Below are positions 5,370 to 12,606 of a stretch of DNA of 64,000 nucleotides, piece by piece. The stretch lies in assembly GCA_027026255.1 (NCBI GenBank), contig JALVOT010000017.1, forward strand, positions 1 through 64,000, given 5' to 3'. The notes beneath the pieces were generated by a model. The model made no database searches, had not been told where the DNA came from, and was given only the letters and a program-made list of their open reading frames with translations. Every line of letters starts with the position of its first letter. Position 1 is the stretch's first letter. The position numbers were made by a program, and so were the translations under genes. This stretch comes from Caldifarciminota bacterium. Its GTDB lineage: Bacteria > Hydrothermota > Tepidihabitantia > SM23-42.

Positions 5370-6941
5370 CTACGGTCGATATCTCAAAGGACAGGCAAGA
5401 CAGCGATCCGCCTCTTTTCTTAATTCTTCCTCTGATGCCCTTAATTCAACCTCTAAGAAATCATTTTTTCTCTCTTCCACATCCCTATGGGGAATCTTTA
5501 TTCTTGGTAAATCCTTAATAGGTAGAACCTCAACCCGGGGCATATAAGATTTTTTAAAGAATCTTCCAATTCCTGGTGCTATTCCCCTTAGTGAAAAATC
5601 AATCAAATCGGCAACCTCTTTTGCCTGACCAACCGCATGAGCAAGGGTCTTACTCCCCAGCACTGCATCACCACCGGCAAAAATCTTTGGATGGGAGGTT
5701 CTGCCGTTTTTCACCTTTATACTTCCATTCTGATTGACCTTTAAGTACTTTCTCAGAAAAGCTGAATCCGGAATTTGACCGCAGGCCAAAACCAACCGGT
5801 CAAGTTCCACCTCAAATTCACTATCCGGCATAATTTCAATTCTTCCTTTTCTTCCTTCCGGTGCCGCGGTTTTAATAAATGTTACCCGACCGTCTTCCAC
5901 ACGCTGGGGCAGACAAAGTGGCACAATCTCAATTCCCTCTTCCCGTGCCTCTTCTCGATCTTCGTGCTCGCACGGCATATCTTCAATCCTTCTCCGATAA
6001 TAGATTGTTACTTTATTACCCTGCCTTATCAAACTGCGTGCCACATCAATTGCTGTATTACCTCCACCAACCACCCCGACCCTGCCCAGATGAAATTCCT
6101 TACCCTTTTTTATTTCTTTCAAAAGTTCAAGTCCGTTCAGGCAATTCTCTTCACCAAGGATATTCAGCTTTATCGGTTTCCCGGCACCGGTGGCAACAAA
6201 TAGAGCATCGTATTTCTGGAGCAGTTCATCCAGGGAAATATCCGCGCCGACCCTGACCCCGCACTTAAGCTCTATACCACAATTCAAAATCTTTTCGATC
6301 TCTTCGTCAAGCACTGAGGAGGATAATCGAAATTCAGGAATAAAGGTTCTTAGAACACCACCCGGCATCTCTTCTTTTTCATAAATCGTAACTCCATAGC
6401 CTTTTTTAACAAGAAAATAACCAGCAGCCAGACCACAGGGACCTGCACCAATAATTCCGATTCTTTTATCCCTCTTTTTATGATTACATTGAGGCGGAGA
6501 CATTTTCACTGCCGATTTGAGATATTTTATTGCCACGGGTTTATCAATACCACGACGGGTGCATTTATCTTCACAGGGTGCCGGGCATATCCTTTCTAAT
6601 ATCTTAAAAAAAGGAAAGAATGGATATTCTTCTTTACTATCTGTAGCAATAAGATTTATATAAATCCAGGGAGTGATACCTGCCGGACACGCCTTTTCAC
6701 AGGGCGGTTTATCATATGTCGCACCTTTGTATGCATCATAGATATTATAAAGCCAGAATAGTATCCAGACACCAACGATACCCCAGAATGCAGGATTCAG
6801 CCCGGTCCAGATGTTTTTCATTAAGAAAATAGAACCGTAAAAGATTACTGCAAATGCAATTCCCACCCATAATCTGCCCTCGTAGACCTGGCCGCCTCCA
6901 ACAATAAATATCGAAATGATTATTGACTTAGCGGACTTCAT
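5370..6941 (-). CDS. Membrane-anchored GltD-like Fe-S flavoprotein oxidoreductase
   Basis: 523 residues. About 70 N-terminal residues form two or three membrane helices. A glutamate-synthase-small-subunit-like body follows: Cys81, Cys85, Cys119, Cys123 and Cys127 in CEKACPAGI and CPAPCEDKC (two 4Fe-4S clusters in relatives), an FAD site IGIIGAGPCGLAAG (from 161), an NAD(P) site VGVVGGGNTAIDVA, and the late FAD motif IFAGGDAV. Such modules pass electrons from NAD(P)H through FAD to Fe-S clusters. The membrane anchor is unusual for this family. The gene overlaps the NapH-like gene upstream by 14 bases, suggesting that protein is its partner. Confidence 0.85.
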   Translation of the reverse strand: MKSAKSIIISIFIVGGGQVYEGRLWVGIAFAVIFYGSIFLMKNIWTGLNPAFWGIVGVWILFWLYNIYDAYKGATYDKPPCEKACPAGITPWIYINLIATDSKEEYPFFPFFKILERICPAPCEDKCTRRGIDKPVAIKYLKSAVKMSPPQCNHKKRDKRIGIIGAGPCGLAAGYFLVKKGYGVTIYEKEEMPGGVLRTFIPEFRLSSSVLDEEIEKILNCGIELKCGVRVGADISLDELLQKYDALFVATGAGKPIKLNILGEENCLNGLELLKEIKKGKEFHLGRVGVVGGGNTAIDVARSLIRQGNKVTIYYRRRIEDMPCEHEDREEAREEGIEIVPLCLPQRVEDGRVTFIKTAAPEGRKGRIEIMPDSEFEVELDRLVLACGQIPDSAFLRKYLKVNQNGSIKVKNGRTSHPKIFAGGDAVLGSKTLAHAVGQAKEVADLIDFSLRGIAPGIGRFFKKSYMPRVEVLPIKDLPRIKIPHRDVEERKNDFLEVELRASEEELRKEADRCLACPLRYRP

Positions 6942-7716
6942 ATTTTATTGCCTGGGTTGGACAGACCTTTTTGCAATCAAGGCATCGGATACAATCAATA
7001 TGATTGGGAGACCTATGAATTGGAACATCCATCGGACAGACAAGCTGACAGGAACCGCAGTCGATACATCTTTTTTTATTGACCCGAATCCGTAAGAGAC
7101 TGAATCGATTGAATACTGAGTATATCGCACCAACCGGACAGAATGTTCGACAGAAAAACCGCTTGATGCCGATAGAACCCAAAAGAATAAAGATAAGAAT
7201 GGCAATCTTCATATAATAATGCCAGCCCACAAGTGCCCTGAGGTCGCCAGACCTGTCGGCAAGCACCAGAGGGATGCCGGCAATCAAACTGCCGTCCGGA
7301 CATAACTTACAGAACCACGGTTCTTCAGTCAGGTAGACAACAAACACTGCAACTCCGATCAACATCACATATTTAAGATATGAACACCAGTTCGGTAATT
7401 TAAGTTTGAATGATTTTATTTTATAAAGAATGTCCTGCAGAAATCCGAATGGACATATCCAGCCGCAGGACATCCTGCCGATTGTCATACCAACCGTGCT
7501 GAAGATCCCCAGAATATAAAATGGTATCAGTCTCAACCCGATAAAATGCTGAAGCGCACCCATTGGGCAGGAATACCAGGCAAGTGGACATCCCCAGCAA
7601 TTAAGGATTGGGGTGCAGTACCTCTTCAATACCCCCTGGTAGATTCCTCCAGAGAAAAACGCCGGAATATATGAATTATGAATAATGACAAAAACAATTT
7701 GAACGATTCTCTTCAT
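6928..7716 (-). CDS. NapH/NosR-like membrane protein with two 4Fe-4S clusters
   Basis: 262 residues with several membrane helices. It has the duplicated CxxxCP motif of NapH/NosR/RdxA proteins (Cys84-Cys88 in CGWICPFG, Cys189-Cys193 in CRTFCPVG). Two classical 4Fe-4S sites follow at the C-terminus (Cys217, 220, 223, 227 and Cys242, 245, 248, 252). Extra cysteines are Cys34, 40, 43 and 50 (NCWGCPLAWYSCP) and Cys136/139 (FCKLCP). Relatives move electrons across or along the inner membrane. Its position between a flavoprotein and periplasmic thioredoxins suggests it links the two (inference). Confidence 0.85.
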   Translation of the reverse strand: MKRIVQIVFVIIHNSYIPAFFSGGIYQGVLKRYCTPILNCWGCPLAWYSCPMGALQHFIGLRLIPFYILGIFSTVGMTIGRMSCGWICPFGFLQDILYKIKSFKLKLPNWCSYLKYVMLIGVAVFVVYLTEEPWFCKLCPDGSLIAGIPLVLADRSGDLRALVGWHYYMKIAILIFILLGSIGIKRFFCRTFCPVGAIYSVFNRFSLLRIRVNKKRCIDCGSCQLVCPMDVPIHRSPNHIDCIRCLDCKKVCPTQAIKYEVR

Positions 7717-7868: not shown

Positions 7869-9386
7869 TTAAAAGATGCTGGAAAGCACCACCTTCACAC
7901 CCTTAAACGGTTCCTCAAATCTGCATACCCCGCCTGAACAGACAAGGCCGCCCTTCTCACCGCCTACCCTTATCCTTAAATTATGGCGGTTTGTAAGGTC
8001 AAGGCTCAATTCTGCCAGGGGCCAGGCCTTCTCATTACCCAGTTTATGTATAAGCCATGCAGGAATCCGATTACGCCATTCATATCTGAGGGTGAGAATG
8101 AAAAGTTCTGGCCTGCCAACACCGAATGTGATGCAGGGTTCATAAAAATCGCTTGTATCACATCGGATAAGGTTATGTTCATACTCAACCTCAACATAGA
8201 ATGGTCCAAAATTATAACTGATATCGCCGTATGGTTTTGTTTCAGTCTTGCGATTGATACCAATTTCAATCTGCTGTTTGATAAGACGGTCCAGACCGGT
8301 GGTTATCTCTAAATCGACAGTAGGATTGGACTTAAGCTTCAGGGTTTGTTCTAATACGCCGGACTGCTCCTTTGAAGGCATATTGATTGTCTGATTAATC
8401 CAGTCCTTGGTTGTATCATGCTGGGTTATCTTATTATTCTCAGCTTCAAAGGATATAAAATCAACCGGCGAAAAATTGACTGATACCCCATAACCAATCT
8501 CATCCATTCCCCGATTCACAGATATCCCGGACTTTATCGGCGTAGGAACCTCATTATATCGGTATCCAGCACCACCGAATCCCATCGTATCATAATCAAC
8601 ATACTGCATTGAAATTCCGAATCCGGGAACGGAAAACCCGAGTGTAGCAAGAAGCCCATCACCCTTCAATCTCCCACCAATAACCGGATGACAGCCAAGA
8701 TGTTTTCCATATTCAAAATAAGTCTCAAAAGGCCCAAACTGACATCCCAGGTTACCACCGAACAATTCTGTAAATGCCTTTGGTGTAAGGTCAACATTAC
8801 GATTCACCCGAACATATCTTGCCCCAAGGTCAAGTTTTGGAATTATCTTTGTCTCCAGATTTATTCCCCTGATCTGATCCGTAGTATCATTTTTTATCTT
8901 ATATATATTCTCTTCAAAGAATATATTCCTCGGCCTGCCGGCGATTAAACTCAACCTGCTTCTAAGATATTTTAAATCCGCCCGCACCCCGAATAAGGAA
9001 TTATCATTACGGAAATCTTCATCAAGAAATTGATTCAGAACCAGACCACGACCGAATGTTGGGTAGAATCTACCATAAACAAAATTCACTGGGTCCTTAC
9101 GATATTGCACCGTATAATTAATATAACGAAGTTTTTCAGAACTGGGCAGTGATGGATTCCACAAGAACAGGGCACCCTTTACTGTTAAATCGCGGTAGCT
9201 TAAAGAAAGTTTCAGTTTATCTTCTAAATGTTCTTTATAATTTAAAGAATCTAAGGATTCATCAACGAATACCCAGTACTCGGCATGATTAGACCCACGC
9301 AGACGCACATTCGCACCGAAAACAGGCATAAACAAAAATATTGCGAACAATAAAAGCCAGTGACTATTATTTTTCTTTTGATTCAT
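7869..9386 (-). CDS. DUF6029-like outer-membrane beta-barrel protein
   Basis: 505 residues from the ATG at 9386, which lies inside the end of the TlpA-like gene. A longer reading from 9560 is out-of-frame overlap with that gene and is rejected. Signal peptide (HWLLLFAIFLFMPVFGA), then alternating amphipathic strands typical of a large barrel, and a C-terminal GGLVCSGGVCRFEEP segment that I associate with DUF6029 proteins. It ends in a hydrophobic strand with terminal Phe, as in outer-membrane proteins. Within the redox operon it may present a redox Cys pair or act as a channel (inference). Confidence 0.75.
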   Translation of the reverse strand: MNQKKNNSHWLLLFAIFLFMPVFGANVRLRGSNHAEYWVFVDESLDSLNYKEHLEDKLKLSLSYRDLTVKGALFLWNPSLPSSEKLRYINYTVQYRKDPVNFVYGRFYPTFGRGLVLNQFLDEDFRNDNSLFGVRADLKYLRSRLSLIAGRPRNIFFEENIYKIKNDTTDQIRGINLETKIIPKLDLGARYVRVNRNVDLTPKAFTELFGGNLGCQFGPFETYFEYGKHLGCHPVIGGRLKGDGLLATLGFSVPGFGISMQYVDYDTMGFGGAGYRYNEVPTPIKSGISVNRGMDEIGYGVSVNFSPVDFISFEAENNKITQHDTTKDWINQTINMPSKEQSGVLEQTLKLKSNPTVDLEITTGLDRLIKQQIEIGINRKTETKPYGDISYNFGPFYVEVEYEHNLIRCDTSDFYEPCITFGVGRPELFILTLRYEWRNRIPAWLIHKLGNEKAWPLAELSLDLTNRHNLRIRVGGEKGGLVCSGGVCRFEEPFKGVKVVLSSIF

Positions 9387-9888
9387 TCTCAGGTTCCTTT
9401 TTAAATAACTCCCTGATTTTGGCGACAACCTTCTTCTCATCCCCTGGTTTATAACCCTGATGGGTAAAGACAATCTTCTTATTCTGATCAATAATGAAAC
9501 TGGTGGGCATTGCCTGAACATCATAGAGTTCACGCATATTATTTTCCGGATCAAGCACAACGATATAACGCCATTTATGGCTTCGGGCGAATGGTTTTAC
9601 CTTGGGAACTGCCCTGGTTTTATCCTGACTAATAGCAAGAAGATTAATTCCCAGGGAATCAAATTCATCATAATAAGGCTTCAAGGCATCCAGTTCCTTG
9701 ATACACATCTTACACCACATTGCCCAGAAACTCATAAATACCGGACCTTTAGCAAGTAGGGAATCAAGACAGACTGTATTACCATCAATATCTTCTAAGG
9801 TAAAATCCGGGGCATCAGAAAACTCGCCTTCCTGTGCCCAGAGCATAATTAACGGCAGTATAAAAATAAAAATTAATTTTTTCATCAT
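9367..9888 (-). CDS. TlpA-like periplasmic thioredoxin
   Basis: 173 residues. Signal peptide (about 1-18), then AhpC/TSA-Redoxin-type strands (APDFTLEDIDGNTVCLDSL), the active site WCKMC with Cys59 and Cys62, and the cis-proline loop AMPTSFIID. TlpA/ResA proteins reduce disulfides in the periplasm and need electrons from an inner-membrane donor, usually CcdA/DsbD. No such donor lies in this operon; a NapH-like protein does. The ATG overlaps the stop of the selenoprotein gene (ATGA), and the 3' end overlaps the barrel gene by 20 bases. Confidence 0.9.
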   Translation of the reverse strand: MMKKLIFIFILPLIMLWAQEGEFSDAPDFTLEDIDGNTVCLDSLLAKGPVFMSFWAMWCKMCIKELDALKPYYDEFDSLGINLLAISQDKTRAVPKVKPFARSHKWRYIVVLDPENNMRELYDVQAMPTSFIIDQNKKIVFTHQGYKPGDEKKVVAKIRELFKKEPENESKEK

Positions 9889-10613
9889 TCCTCCAAAAAT
9901 TTTTCTCCTTTTGACTGCATAATCTCTTTGGTATCCATATCCTGAACAAAAACAACCGTCCGCATCCTGTCAACCCCTATCGAATGAGAAAATGTAATCG
10001 TTGTATCAAGGCTATCAGGATAAATAAGATTCACGGGAAATTGAAAAAGCTGACGGCAAACACGATAATAGGTATATGAATGATTTGATGCACCAGGCAA
10101 ACTATCTTCAAGGATTGCAACAAATGCATTCATCTCATCTTCAGGAATTGTATCCGCGGCCACAATTTTGACCCTGACACTACCGGTTGAATTGGAAGCG
10201 CTTGCCTCAACCGTCAAATTAAAATATGGAGCCTTTGACTGGGCAATCCTGATATGCTCTTCATAGATTTCATTAAACGGTGGGCTTTCCACAAAGACGT
10301 GGTCTGTGCCATCAAAGACCGTGGTCGGTAAAAGGGGATTGTCATAAAATTCCCTGCGCTGATGGCTCTTTGGATTTTCATACGGCTGGTTAGTATGATA
10401 TGAAATCACTACTAATGTATCCCCTAATGATGCAAGACTATCAAGGAGGGCCTGCTCCGCAAGCCAGCAATATGGTCAACCATCCTCAGTAAACAATTCC
10501 GCAAGCACAGTGCGGCTTGTTGGTTCCGGAAAGTGAACCTCAGGAGCCTCTGAACAGCGCACAAAAAAACCAACAAGTATTAAACCGGGTAAAGATTTTA
10601 ATAATTTCTTCAT
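9885..10613 (-). CDS. Selenocysteine-containing Omp28/thioredoxin-like protein (UPYC)
   Basis: 242 residues if the in-frame TGA at 10478-10476 is read as selenocysteine 46. Residues 1-20 are a signal peptide, possibly lipoprotein-like (Cys20, imperfect lipobox). Then comes VLAELFTEDG-U-P-Y-C-WLAEQALL, where U replaces the first Cys of a CPYC thioredoxin/glutaredoxin site. The Trx fold continues through VVISYH and the cis-Pro loop LPTTVFDG, followed by an Omp28-like beta domain. A hairpin that fits bacterial SECIS rules starts 10 nt after the TGA. The gene itself ends with TGA, so UGA has both meanings here. First gene of the redox operon. Confidence 0.85.
10449..10465 (-). promoter_or_regulatory. 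Bacterial SECIS-like hairpin for Sec46
   Basis: The mRNA sequence is GGCUUGCGGAGCAGGCC: seven pairs (one G-U) closing a GGA loop. The loop begins 17 nt after the UGA (10478-10476), within the 16-37 nt range described for bacterial SECIS elements, and has the required G at its start. Confidence 0.75.
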
Positions 10614-10620
10614 ATTTTCT

Positions 10621-10648
10621 ATTCTATCTAAAAAAAGCTGATTGTCAA
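10621..10648 (-). promoter_or_regulatory. Promoter of the redox operon
   Basis: Minus strand: TTGACA (10648-10643), 16-bp spacer, TAGAAT (10626-10621), then 7 nt to the ATG at 10613, with no ribosome site. It starts just downstream of a strong terminator, which isolates this operon from the upstream selenoprotein unit. Confidence 0.75.
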
Positions 10649-10652
10649 CAGA

Positions 10653-10696
10653 AAAATGGAGATAGGGAAAACAAAAAAATTCCCTATCTCCATTTT
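10653..10696 (-). terminator. Rho-independent terminator of the second selenoprotein gene
   Basis: Perfect 17-bp inverted repeat (arms 10653-10669 and 10680-10696) with a 10-nt loop. The arms carry TGGAGATAGGG and its complement, ending in a T-rich run in the minus direction. It lies 6 bases after the stop at 10702. Confidence 0.85.
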
Positions 10697-10701
10697 ATCA
10701 T

Positions 10702-12606
10702 TTACCTTAGAAGAATTAATTTCTGTGTCTGAGTGTAGTCTGCAGCCTCAACTCTCACAAAGTAGACACCGGCGGAAACCAGATTATCTCTATCATCCCT
10801 TCGATTCCAGATAAGTTTTTCAGAACCAATATTCCTGAATTTCTTAATAAGTCTGCCTGTAGCATCAAAAACCGTAATCTCATCCAGGTTCTTAAGATTA
10901 AAGTTACTCAATTCAATGCTCACATTATCCCGAGAAGGATTGGGCCAGAGCATAAAATGCGGGGTGAGTGGCTTTGATTCAGCACATTCCTCAACCGCCA
11001 CAAGGCTGATGCCGAAGAAGTGCATAATTGAATCGAGCAAAGCTGCCCTGGTCGATACACCACTGCCGTCAACCAGACCGCCGAGTTCAAAAGAGGTGCC
11101 CACAGTCTTGTATGACCCGATATCCCGCGCTACACCACAATCATAATTGTTATTACCATCCCGAAAGATTAGAAAAGAACCGGAATCGGTTGGTGAGATA
11201 TGATCCATATAAGCATTATCACCGCCATAAGAAAAATTCATCTGATTGGTAAAGGTGCCGTTCTGTCCCACAACCGGACCCATATCACCGGACCCATCTC
11301 CGGTTGCATTAATACCGAAGAGCGGACCGAAATTATAACCACCCTCATTTCTGGGATCATAATACCAGACCTCACCACCCTCTAAGTACATCCTACCATT
11401 CTGATTCTGGAGAAAATCAACCAGGGTATTTGCTTCCGGGCTGTTATTTCTAATTACATAATTATCTGAATAAACCCCGACACAGACAAAGACCGCATAG
11501 TAATTTGCAAGTTCACTACTGGTCGGCAGTTTTACATCATAATTTCCTGAATACCCAAGATCAGAAAGGATATTATGTATCGCCCGACCTGATGCCGGTG
11601 TGAGATCTGGGTTCCAGACAAAATAGTGGATTCTGCCTACGACAACAGAAAAGTCAAAGGTATCCGTATATCCACCATCCGTAGCGATGAGCTTAAACAG
11701 GGCTTTATGACCCTGAGGAGCTGATGCACTGGCTGATATGGTATAGGGGTCGGCAGTATTCTCTTTTGTCGTGTCAACCGGAAGAGAACCAAAATTTCCG
11801 GAGTTGTCTGATATTGTTACATAGGAATCAGATGAGATGATGGTAGTGGAAAGATTGCTGAAGTTTACACCACCAATATTTTTTAAGGTAGCGGTTAAAT
11901 TAACGGTTTCACCCGGGTCAAGTCGGCCGTTGTTATTACCACCGCTGTCATAAATTGTATTTTTTATCAAAGCAAGATAGGGATTTGAACCGGTATAATT
12001 TAATGCAATATCATCGGCGAAGACCTTCGCCTCTTCTCGGGCACCTCAACATGTATGCTCGGTCTTTGCATAAAGGGTAATCTTTATTTTTTTAACATCC
12101 TGTGGGTTTACACCAGAAAGATTGTTGAGTTCATCATTAATATTAAAGCTATAATTATTCCAGTTTGTATTTGAAGCAATAATCAAATGTGAGGTTGAAG
12201 AATTTGCCCAGGGAAACGGCTCACTGAATCTACAGATCTTTGTATCACCAAGCAAAGAACCGCTTTCATCAAGATAACTGATTATTACGGCGGCACCCGC
12301 ACAGCAAAGTGTGTCCGCATTATTATCCCAGGCATAAAGTTTTGCCTTAACTGCGAACTGCAGATCGGTGGTCGGAATATTCACCACCTGCCAGAGTTGG
12401 GCAGTACCGCTGCCATTATTCACCAGACTCCTTGCTTCATAGTCAGGGTCGGTGTCATAATTTGTTGCTCGATCCACCACTGCATTACCACCGGATGTAC
12501 TCTCATACCAACCCGTATTAAGGGGTTGTTCAAAATCACCATTGGTTAATAGAACACTCGCCTGGGTCAAACCGATAATAAATAATAAGGCGAGAAACTT
12601 ACGCAT
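10702..12606 (-). CDS. Secreted selenoprotein with Cys-Sec pair and C-terminal sorting domain
   Basis: 634 residues if the TGA at 12048-12046 is selenocysteine 187; the frame continues uninterrupted on both sides. Signal peptide 1-17, then a jelly-roll (CBM-like) domain that opens with LTNGDFE and closes across the Sec site (KTEHTC-U-GAREEAKVFADDIALNY), a CARDB-like beta domain (GRLDPGETVNLTATLKNIGG), a central globular domain of about 220 residues and a C-terminal sorting/FlgD-like module (WPNPSRDN ... GVYFVRV ... QKLILLR). Other cysteines in the first domain are Cys101, 102, 125 and 186. A GGUC-loop hairpin follows the TGA. SD AAAGGAGG precedes the ATG. It follows the TrmB-type regulator by 12 bases. 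Confidence 0.85.
12016..12031 (-). promoter_or_regulatory. Bacterial SECIS-like hairpin for Sec187
   Basis: The mRNA GGCGAAGGUCUUCGCC forms six perfect pairs around a GGUC loop that begins 20 nt after the UGA at 12048-12046. The E. coli fdhF SECIS has a GGUC apical loop at almost the same distance (from memory). Perfect complementarity inside a coding region is unlikely by chance. Confidence 0.85.

Follow-up and report, generated by a model that had tools for sequence, protein, structure and literature searches.

A predicted Omp28-related UxxC selenoprotein in a conserved redox gene cluster of the WOR-3 (Stahlbacteria) group

The gene at 10613-9885 of the window (the whole 64-kb stretch of DNA analysed here) very probably encodes an Omp28-related selenoprotein of the cell envelope, with a probable thioredoxin fold and a predicted Sec46-Pro-Tyr-Cys49 site, which would act as a thiol/selenol oxidoreductase reduced by a TlpA-like partner. 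Selenoproteins of the Omp28-related UxxC kind are already known; what is new is the conserved redox-cluster setting of this gene and the presence of a second selenoprotein gene next to it. An earlier note on this DNA had described the selenoprotein gene and mentioned neither the redox cluster downstream of it nor the second selenoprotein gene upstream. The features of the region are listed in Table 1.

Table 1. Positions in the window of the two predicted selenoprotein genes, of their recoding and transcription signals and of the genes downstream.
Feature	Position	Strand	Basis
GltD-like FAD/NAD(P) oxidoreductase with N-terminal Fe-S domain	5370..6941	minus	family match; adjoins NapH in several loci
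NapH-like membrane 4Fe-4S ferredoxin	6928..7716	minus	family match; syntenic
DUF6029 protein	7869..9560	minus	PF19494 E 2.5e-23; syntenic
TlpA/ResA-like thioredoxin, CKMC	9367..9888	minus	start codon overlaps Omp28 stop; adjoins in 22/25 related loci
Omp28-like UxxC selenoprotein gene, 242 aa, Sec46 (FTEDG-U-PYC)	9885..10613	minus	orthologues with TGA in same column; sub-threshold NF033782/NF045500 matches
Bacterial SECIS hairpin GGCUUGC-GGA-GCAGGCC	10449..10465	minus	covariation and fit to bSECIS model
Internal TGA, predicted Sec46 codon	10476..10478	minus	same column in 24 further genes; Cys in paralogues
Signal peptide up to invariant Cys20 (CSxAP), predicted lipidation site	10554..10613	minus	conservation
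Promoter-like TTGACA-16-TAGAAT	10621..10648	minus	agrees with consensus at 11/12 positions; expectation at scan threshold, 0.7 sites per shuffle
Probable terminator (17-bp hairpin, U-run) in the gap separating the selenoprotein genes	10653..10696	minus	-27 kcal/mol, z -7.2
Gene of a second selenoprotein (634 aa, HTC-U-GA with Sec187) that ends in a T9SS type A signal	10702..12606	minus	TGA in 15/15 homologues
SECIS hairpin GGCGAA-GGUC-UUCGCC, loop 20 nt past UGA	12016..12031	minus	covariation
In-frame TGA, predicted Sec187	12046..12048	minus	conservation

The reading frame of the Omp28-like gene opens with an ATG at 10613-10611 and the N-terminal sequence MKKLLKSLPGLILVGFFVRCSEAPEV. Its sole internal stop is a TGA, in the context VLAELFTEDG-U-PYCWLAEQAL, and its terminal stop, at 9887-9885, is a TGA as well; re-reading of the sequence agrees with the earlier note on both, including the placement of the in-frame TGA (10478-10476) at residue 46. 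Residues C20, S21, A23 and P24 are invariant among 24 aligned sequences, and this C20-S-x-A-P signature suggests that the product is a lipoprotein. The N-terminus and the profile matches described below support the exported, thioredoxin/Omp28-like nature that had been proposed for it.

Matches to the Omp28-like protein were found in 53 of 61 related genomes, and nearly all of its closest orthologues have exactly one TGA. The TGA occupies the same column in 24 further genes, mostly one per related genome. In the resulting set of 25 genes, the U-x-x-C motif and the flanking sequence on both sides are conserved, and the Sec rows of the alignment are 31-58% identical to the window protein. The earlier note had proposed asking whether Cys replaces the TGA in homologues. 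It does so in paralogues with RCxYCP or RCVFCP motifs, including one in the same genome (C17:84340-85053, RCTYCP), and the presence of Cys at the Sec column supports the assignment of Sec46 to the catalytic position of the UxxC motif. As for relatives in which neither residue is found, an orthologue-like extra copy in genome G017 (L050, G017:C65:5286-6014) has GGA (Gly) in place of the TGA and has retained the SECIS codons; it represents a recent loss of Sec. The Sec label requires only three changes on a 39-row tree, where one Sec row, L043, falls within the Cys clade on starred branches. In the RNA of this copy (L043:1501-2211, minus strand), which has the motif RUTYC, the usual SECIS is replaced by a hairpin that folds about 29 nt past the UGA and has GGAU as its loop; the copy is possibly the outcome of an independent Cys-to-Sec change. 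In the contig profile searches, a single Omp28-like protein as the query yielded no relatives, and an alignment of family members (A3) yielded seven loci.

The hairpin that the earlier note had drawn downstream of the UGA was recovered in all its particulars, as it starts 10 nt past the UGA and has its loop at 17 nt, with G as the first loop base. The bSECIS model calls for a loop of 3-9 nt, a stem of 4-16 bp, a distance of 16-37 nt from the UGA and an MFE <= -7.5, with G among the first two loop bases (PMC13188914), and the window hairpin fits this model (GGA loop, 7-bp stem, 17-nt spacing, MFE of about -12 kcal/mol). Its stability in the single sequence was rejected as evidence for a SECIS, because the z-score of the 57-nt stretch (-12.4 kcal/mol) is +0.66, with 147 of 200 shuffles at least as stable. 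Covariation was tested on 24 sequences, with an 8-bp stem and 500 shuffles. Stem cells are paired in 91% of cases versus 77% in the shuffles, and two-sided changes affect six of the eight stem pairs, amounting to 29 cells versus 9.0 +/- 3.7 in the shuffles (0/500); slid versions of the stem all perform far worse than the actual register. Codon 6 after the UGA is GCG in 23 of 25 genes and codon 7 is GAG in 24 of 25, with variable codons around them. One stem pair joins the wobble base of codon 5 to the middle base of codon 8; among 24 sequences, 12 have U-A and 11 have C-G there. Protein constraint does not explain why a Gln/Arg change should be matched in this manner by a wobble base that is synonymous or unrelated. 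Two loci, L038 and L043, deviate from the common SECIS form.

The genome to which the window belongs (2.1 Mb, 99% complete) encodes the machinery for selenocysteine insertion: selA, selB, selC and selD, which the earlier note had suggested looking for, are all present. The selA gene (C15:3125-4477, 548.7 bits) is directly followed by one of two selB genes (341 and 324 bits), the tRNA-Sec has a TCA anticodon (78.5 bits), and the two selD genes (347 and 310 bits) are of the Sec type, each with an in-frame TGA. Among 65 genomes of the class, selA or selB is present in 36 of the 38 that have a TGA-bearing Omp28 gene versus 15 of the 27 that do not (Fisher p 3.7e-4, a test that ignores kinship and uses TGA-bearing labels taken from internal-stop counts in search matches, some divergent rows of which were not inspected by eye). 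One exception, G001 (53% complete), has a tRNA-Sec. In G027, a 91%-complete draft with a TGA gene, searches for selA, selB and tRNA-Sec found none of them, perhaps owing to absent contigs. The eight f4-family genomes and one from family f8 have neither selA nor selB, and no TGA-bearing copy is present in any of them.

Two selB genes were found only in this genome and in G017 among the 65 genomes. The idea that they explain the existence of two SECIS types is unsupported, as a single selB is seen in most of the genomes that have the two types. The second full-length selB gene (C17:75150-77036; L047:11111-13045) is located near genes for a cysteine desulfurase, a YedE-like transporter and a Sec-type SelD. 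Elsewhere on the contig (C17:85630-86940; L048:1630-2940), a fusion between a ferredoxin-thioredoxin reductase beta-chain domain and SelD has an in-frame TGA (GUASK), and genes for an ABC transporter, a methyltransferase and a corrinoid protein are found downstream of it. It is possible that this cluster serves selenium uptake or activation.

The conserved TGA, the covarying SECIS and the presence of the Sec machinery support the reading of the codon as Sec put forward in the earlier note, and the same observations bear on the other ways in which it could be read. Under the standard code translation ends at the TGA, and beyond it lies a 174-aa ORF that begins with GTG, such that the gene might be a pseudogene or its second part might be translated from the internal GTG at 10409. 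Nevertheless, the same TGA is found in 24 further genes in which both halves are conserved, the redox site straddles it, and the SECIS covaries in a lineage equipped for Sec insertion, which makes a genuine stop highly improbable. We give even less credence to the decoding of the TGA as another amino acid, for example Trp, by reassignment or suppression. Several genes of the genome have internal TGAs, but TGA terminates 21 of the 48 long ORFs in the window; it is therefore an ordinary stop, and genome-wide reassignment is rejected on that basis. Furthermore, paralogues have Cys, not Trp, at this position, and a tRNA-Sec(TCA) is present. Insertion of Sec at residue 46 is thus the reading that we retain.

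The Omp28-like protein has only a weak DUF1223 match in Pfam. Its matches to the NCBIfam models NF045500 (Omp28-related selenoprotein; 32.3 bits, E 6.7e-8) and NF033782 (Omp28 lipoprotein; 21.5 bits, residues 31-82 only) are below the respective cut-offs of 200 and 150. All 24 family members match NF033782 (E < 0.001), and 21 of the 24 match NF045500. A profile search of the PDB identified the thioredoxin-fold structures 1FO5 (E 1.9e-5) and 2AXO (E about 2e-5); in the alignment with 1FO5, the Sec column falls on the leading Cys of its CPHC motif. The window protein thus shows the trait of NF045500, a UxxC motif in a thioredoxin-like domain. The AlphaFold2 model built from eight sequences is poor (pLDDT 48.6, with residues 1-127 below 50), and hence sequence similarity is the basis for assigning a thioredoxin fold.

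The Omp28-related UxxC kind of selenoprotein goes back to a 2008 prediction, under the name GOS_C, with 74 sequences from ocean metagenomes (PMC2398784), and GOS_C appears as NF045500 in a table of a 2026 review (PMC13188914). The earlier note had called the protein undescribed-looking. This holds for the gene itself, given its score far below the NF045500 cut-off, but not for its kind, which is known as GOS_C. Because of that score, the gene is best regarded as a divergent WOR-3 variant of the GOS_C kind, outside NF045500. It shares with GOS_C/NF045500 the predicted thioredoxin-like fold, the UxxC motif and the relationship to Omp28, but it differs by its length (242 aa versus 377 model positions), its WOR-3 lineage, its lipoprotein-like N-terminus and its clustering with TlpA, DUF6029 and NapH genes. 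The lipoprotein-type N-terminus and the same redox-motif region are also found in the NF033782 Omp28 lipoproteins, in contrast with which the window protein has Sec replacing the first Cys. Sec is likewise the first residue of the CxxC motif, with a bSECIS inside the coding region, in the UxxC Trx-like, TlpA-like and SaoT proteins (PMC13188914), unlike which the window protein has a C-terminal beta region of the Omp28 type. The SAO and Tso operons (PMC13188914) also have several selenoprotein genes side by side, although they involve other protein families, and the products encoded in the window have export or T9SS signals. Our literature search, outside of which most subscription papers fell, retrieved no publication on Omp28 and selenoproteins, on WOR-3 and selenoproteins, on Stahlbacteria and selenium, or on selenoproteins with T9SS signals.

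The gene neighbourhood of the Omp28-like gene is conserved. TlpA and DUF6029 genes are found downstream of it in 22 of 25 loci, and in those 22 the NapH gene is present wherever the sequence extends far enough, followed in several of them by the FAD oxidoreductase gene. The three loci without TlpA and DUF6029 are the Gly copy, the G005 copy that belongs to the Cys clade, and a locus in G004 where the sequence immediately downstream is masked. The DUF6029 protein is a probable outer-membrane beta-barrel. Upstream, the promoter-like element ends 7 nt 5' of the ATG, which implies a nearly leaderless mRNA. This conserved neighbourhood, a cell-envelope thiol redox module, is the strongest clue to function.

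We propose that SelB and Sec-tRNA, guided by the hairpin at 10465-10449, would decode the UGA as Sec, and that the precursor would then be exported and, judging from homology and gene neighbourhood, probably lipidated at Cys20. Sec46 would attack disulfides or other oxidised thiols or selenols, giving rise to a Sec46-Cys49 selenenylsulfide. The gene order suggests that the co-translated TlpA-like CKMC partner most likely reduces this bond, that the NapH-like ferredoxin and the FAD oxidoreductase would be the likely source of electrons, and that exported Cys or Sec proteins, including the neighbouring T9SS selenoprotein, would be the likely clients. Alternatively, the protein might be a true selenoprotein whose main role at the cell surface is the handling of peroxide, of metals (Hg, As) or of selenium, rather than disulfide reduction. 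UxxC thioredoxin folds serve many reactions, and two selD genes of the Sec type and a cluster presumed to concern selenium are located about 70 kb away, in keeping with such a role. We nevertheless consider it rather unlikely, as the gene has a TlpA-type thiol oxidoreductase as its constant neighbour, accompanied by ferredoxin and FAD proteins, and the cluster revealed no gene recognisable as one for metal handling. A thiol/selenol oxidoreductase reduced by TlpA remains our preferred explanation.

As for the second selenoprotein gene, two apparent ORFs (186 and 422 aa) form one frame across the TGA at 12048-12046, which reads HTC-U-GAREEAKVFADD. The residue before the TGA is Cys in 12 and Gly in 3 of the 15 homologues examined. 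In the stem with the GGUC loop, 98.9% of the cells are paired, and 14 cells show two-sided changes versus 3.8 in the shuffles (0/500). Outside of the sorting domain, Pfam and NCBIfam revealed no family for the 12606-10702 protein, which is apparently an undescribed exported selenoprotein. The same genome encodes a SprA-like translocon protein with a score above the cut-off. This T9SS Cys-Sec protein is the most novel part of the exported selenoprotein cluster. Many relatives also encode, just upstream, a T9SS Omp28 protein bearing a U-x-x-C motif; this constitutes a third type, and a TGA is present in all 10 intact copies read. Two Omp28-like proteins of this third type, each about 350 aa long, are encoded in tandem at another locus of the genome (C8:76067-77826; L077, L078), and they have UGQC and UGCC motifs and C-termini that resemble sorting signals.

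It is tempting to speculate that WOR-3 bacteria possess an exported selenoprotein system, in which selenoproteins secreted by the T9SS, namely a Cys-Sec or Gly-Sec surface protein and Omp28-like UxxC proteins, would be maintained in a functional state by a trans-envelope relay dedicated to them and composed of the FAD oxidoreductase, the NapH-like ferredoxin, TlpA and the Sec-lipoprotein. This broader scheme is tentative, and we hold it to be possible rather than probable. With this analysis, the uncultured WOR-3 (Stahlbacteria) group gains a selenoprotein lineage that is well supported and verified at the level of its SECIS. The constant set of genomic partners makes the function of the orphan GOS_C/Omp28 selenoprotein kind testable, and the finding of an apparently exported T9SS selenoprotein leads one to ask how selenols, once secreted, stay reduced outside the cell.
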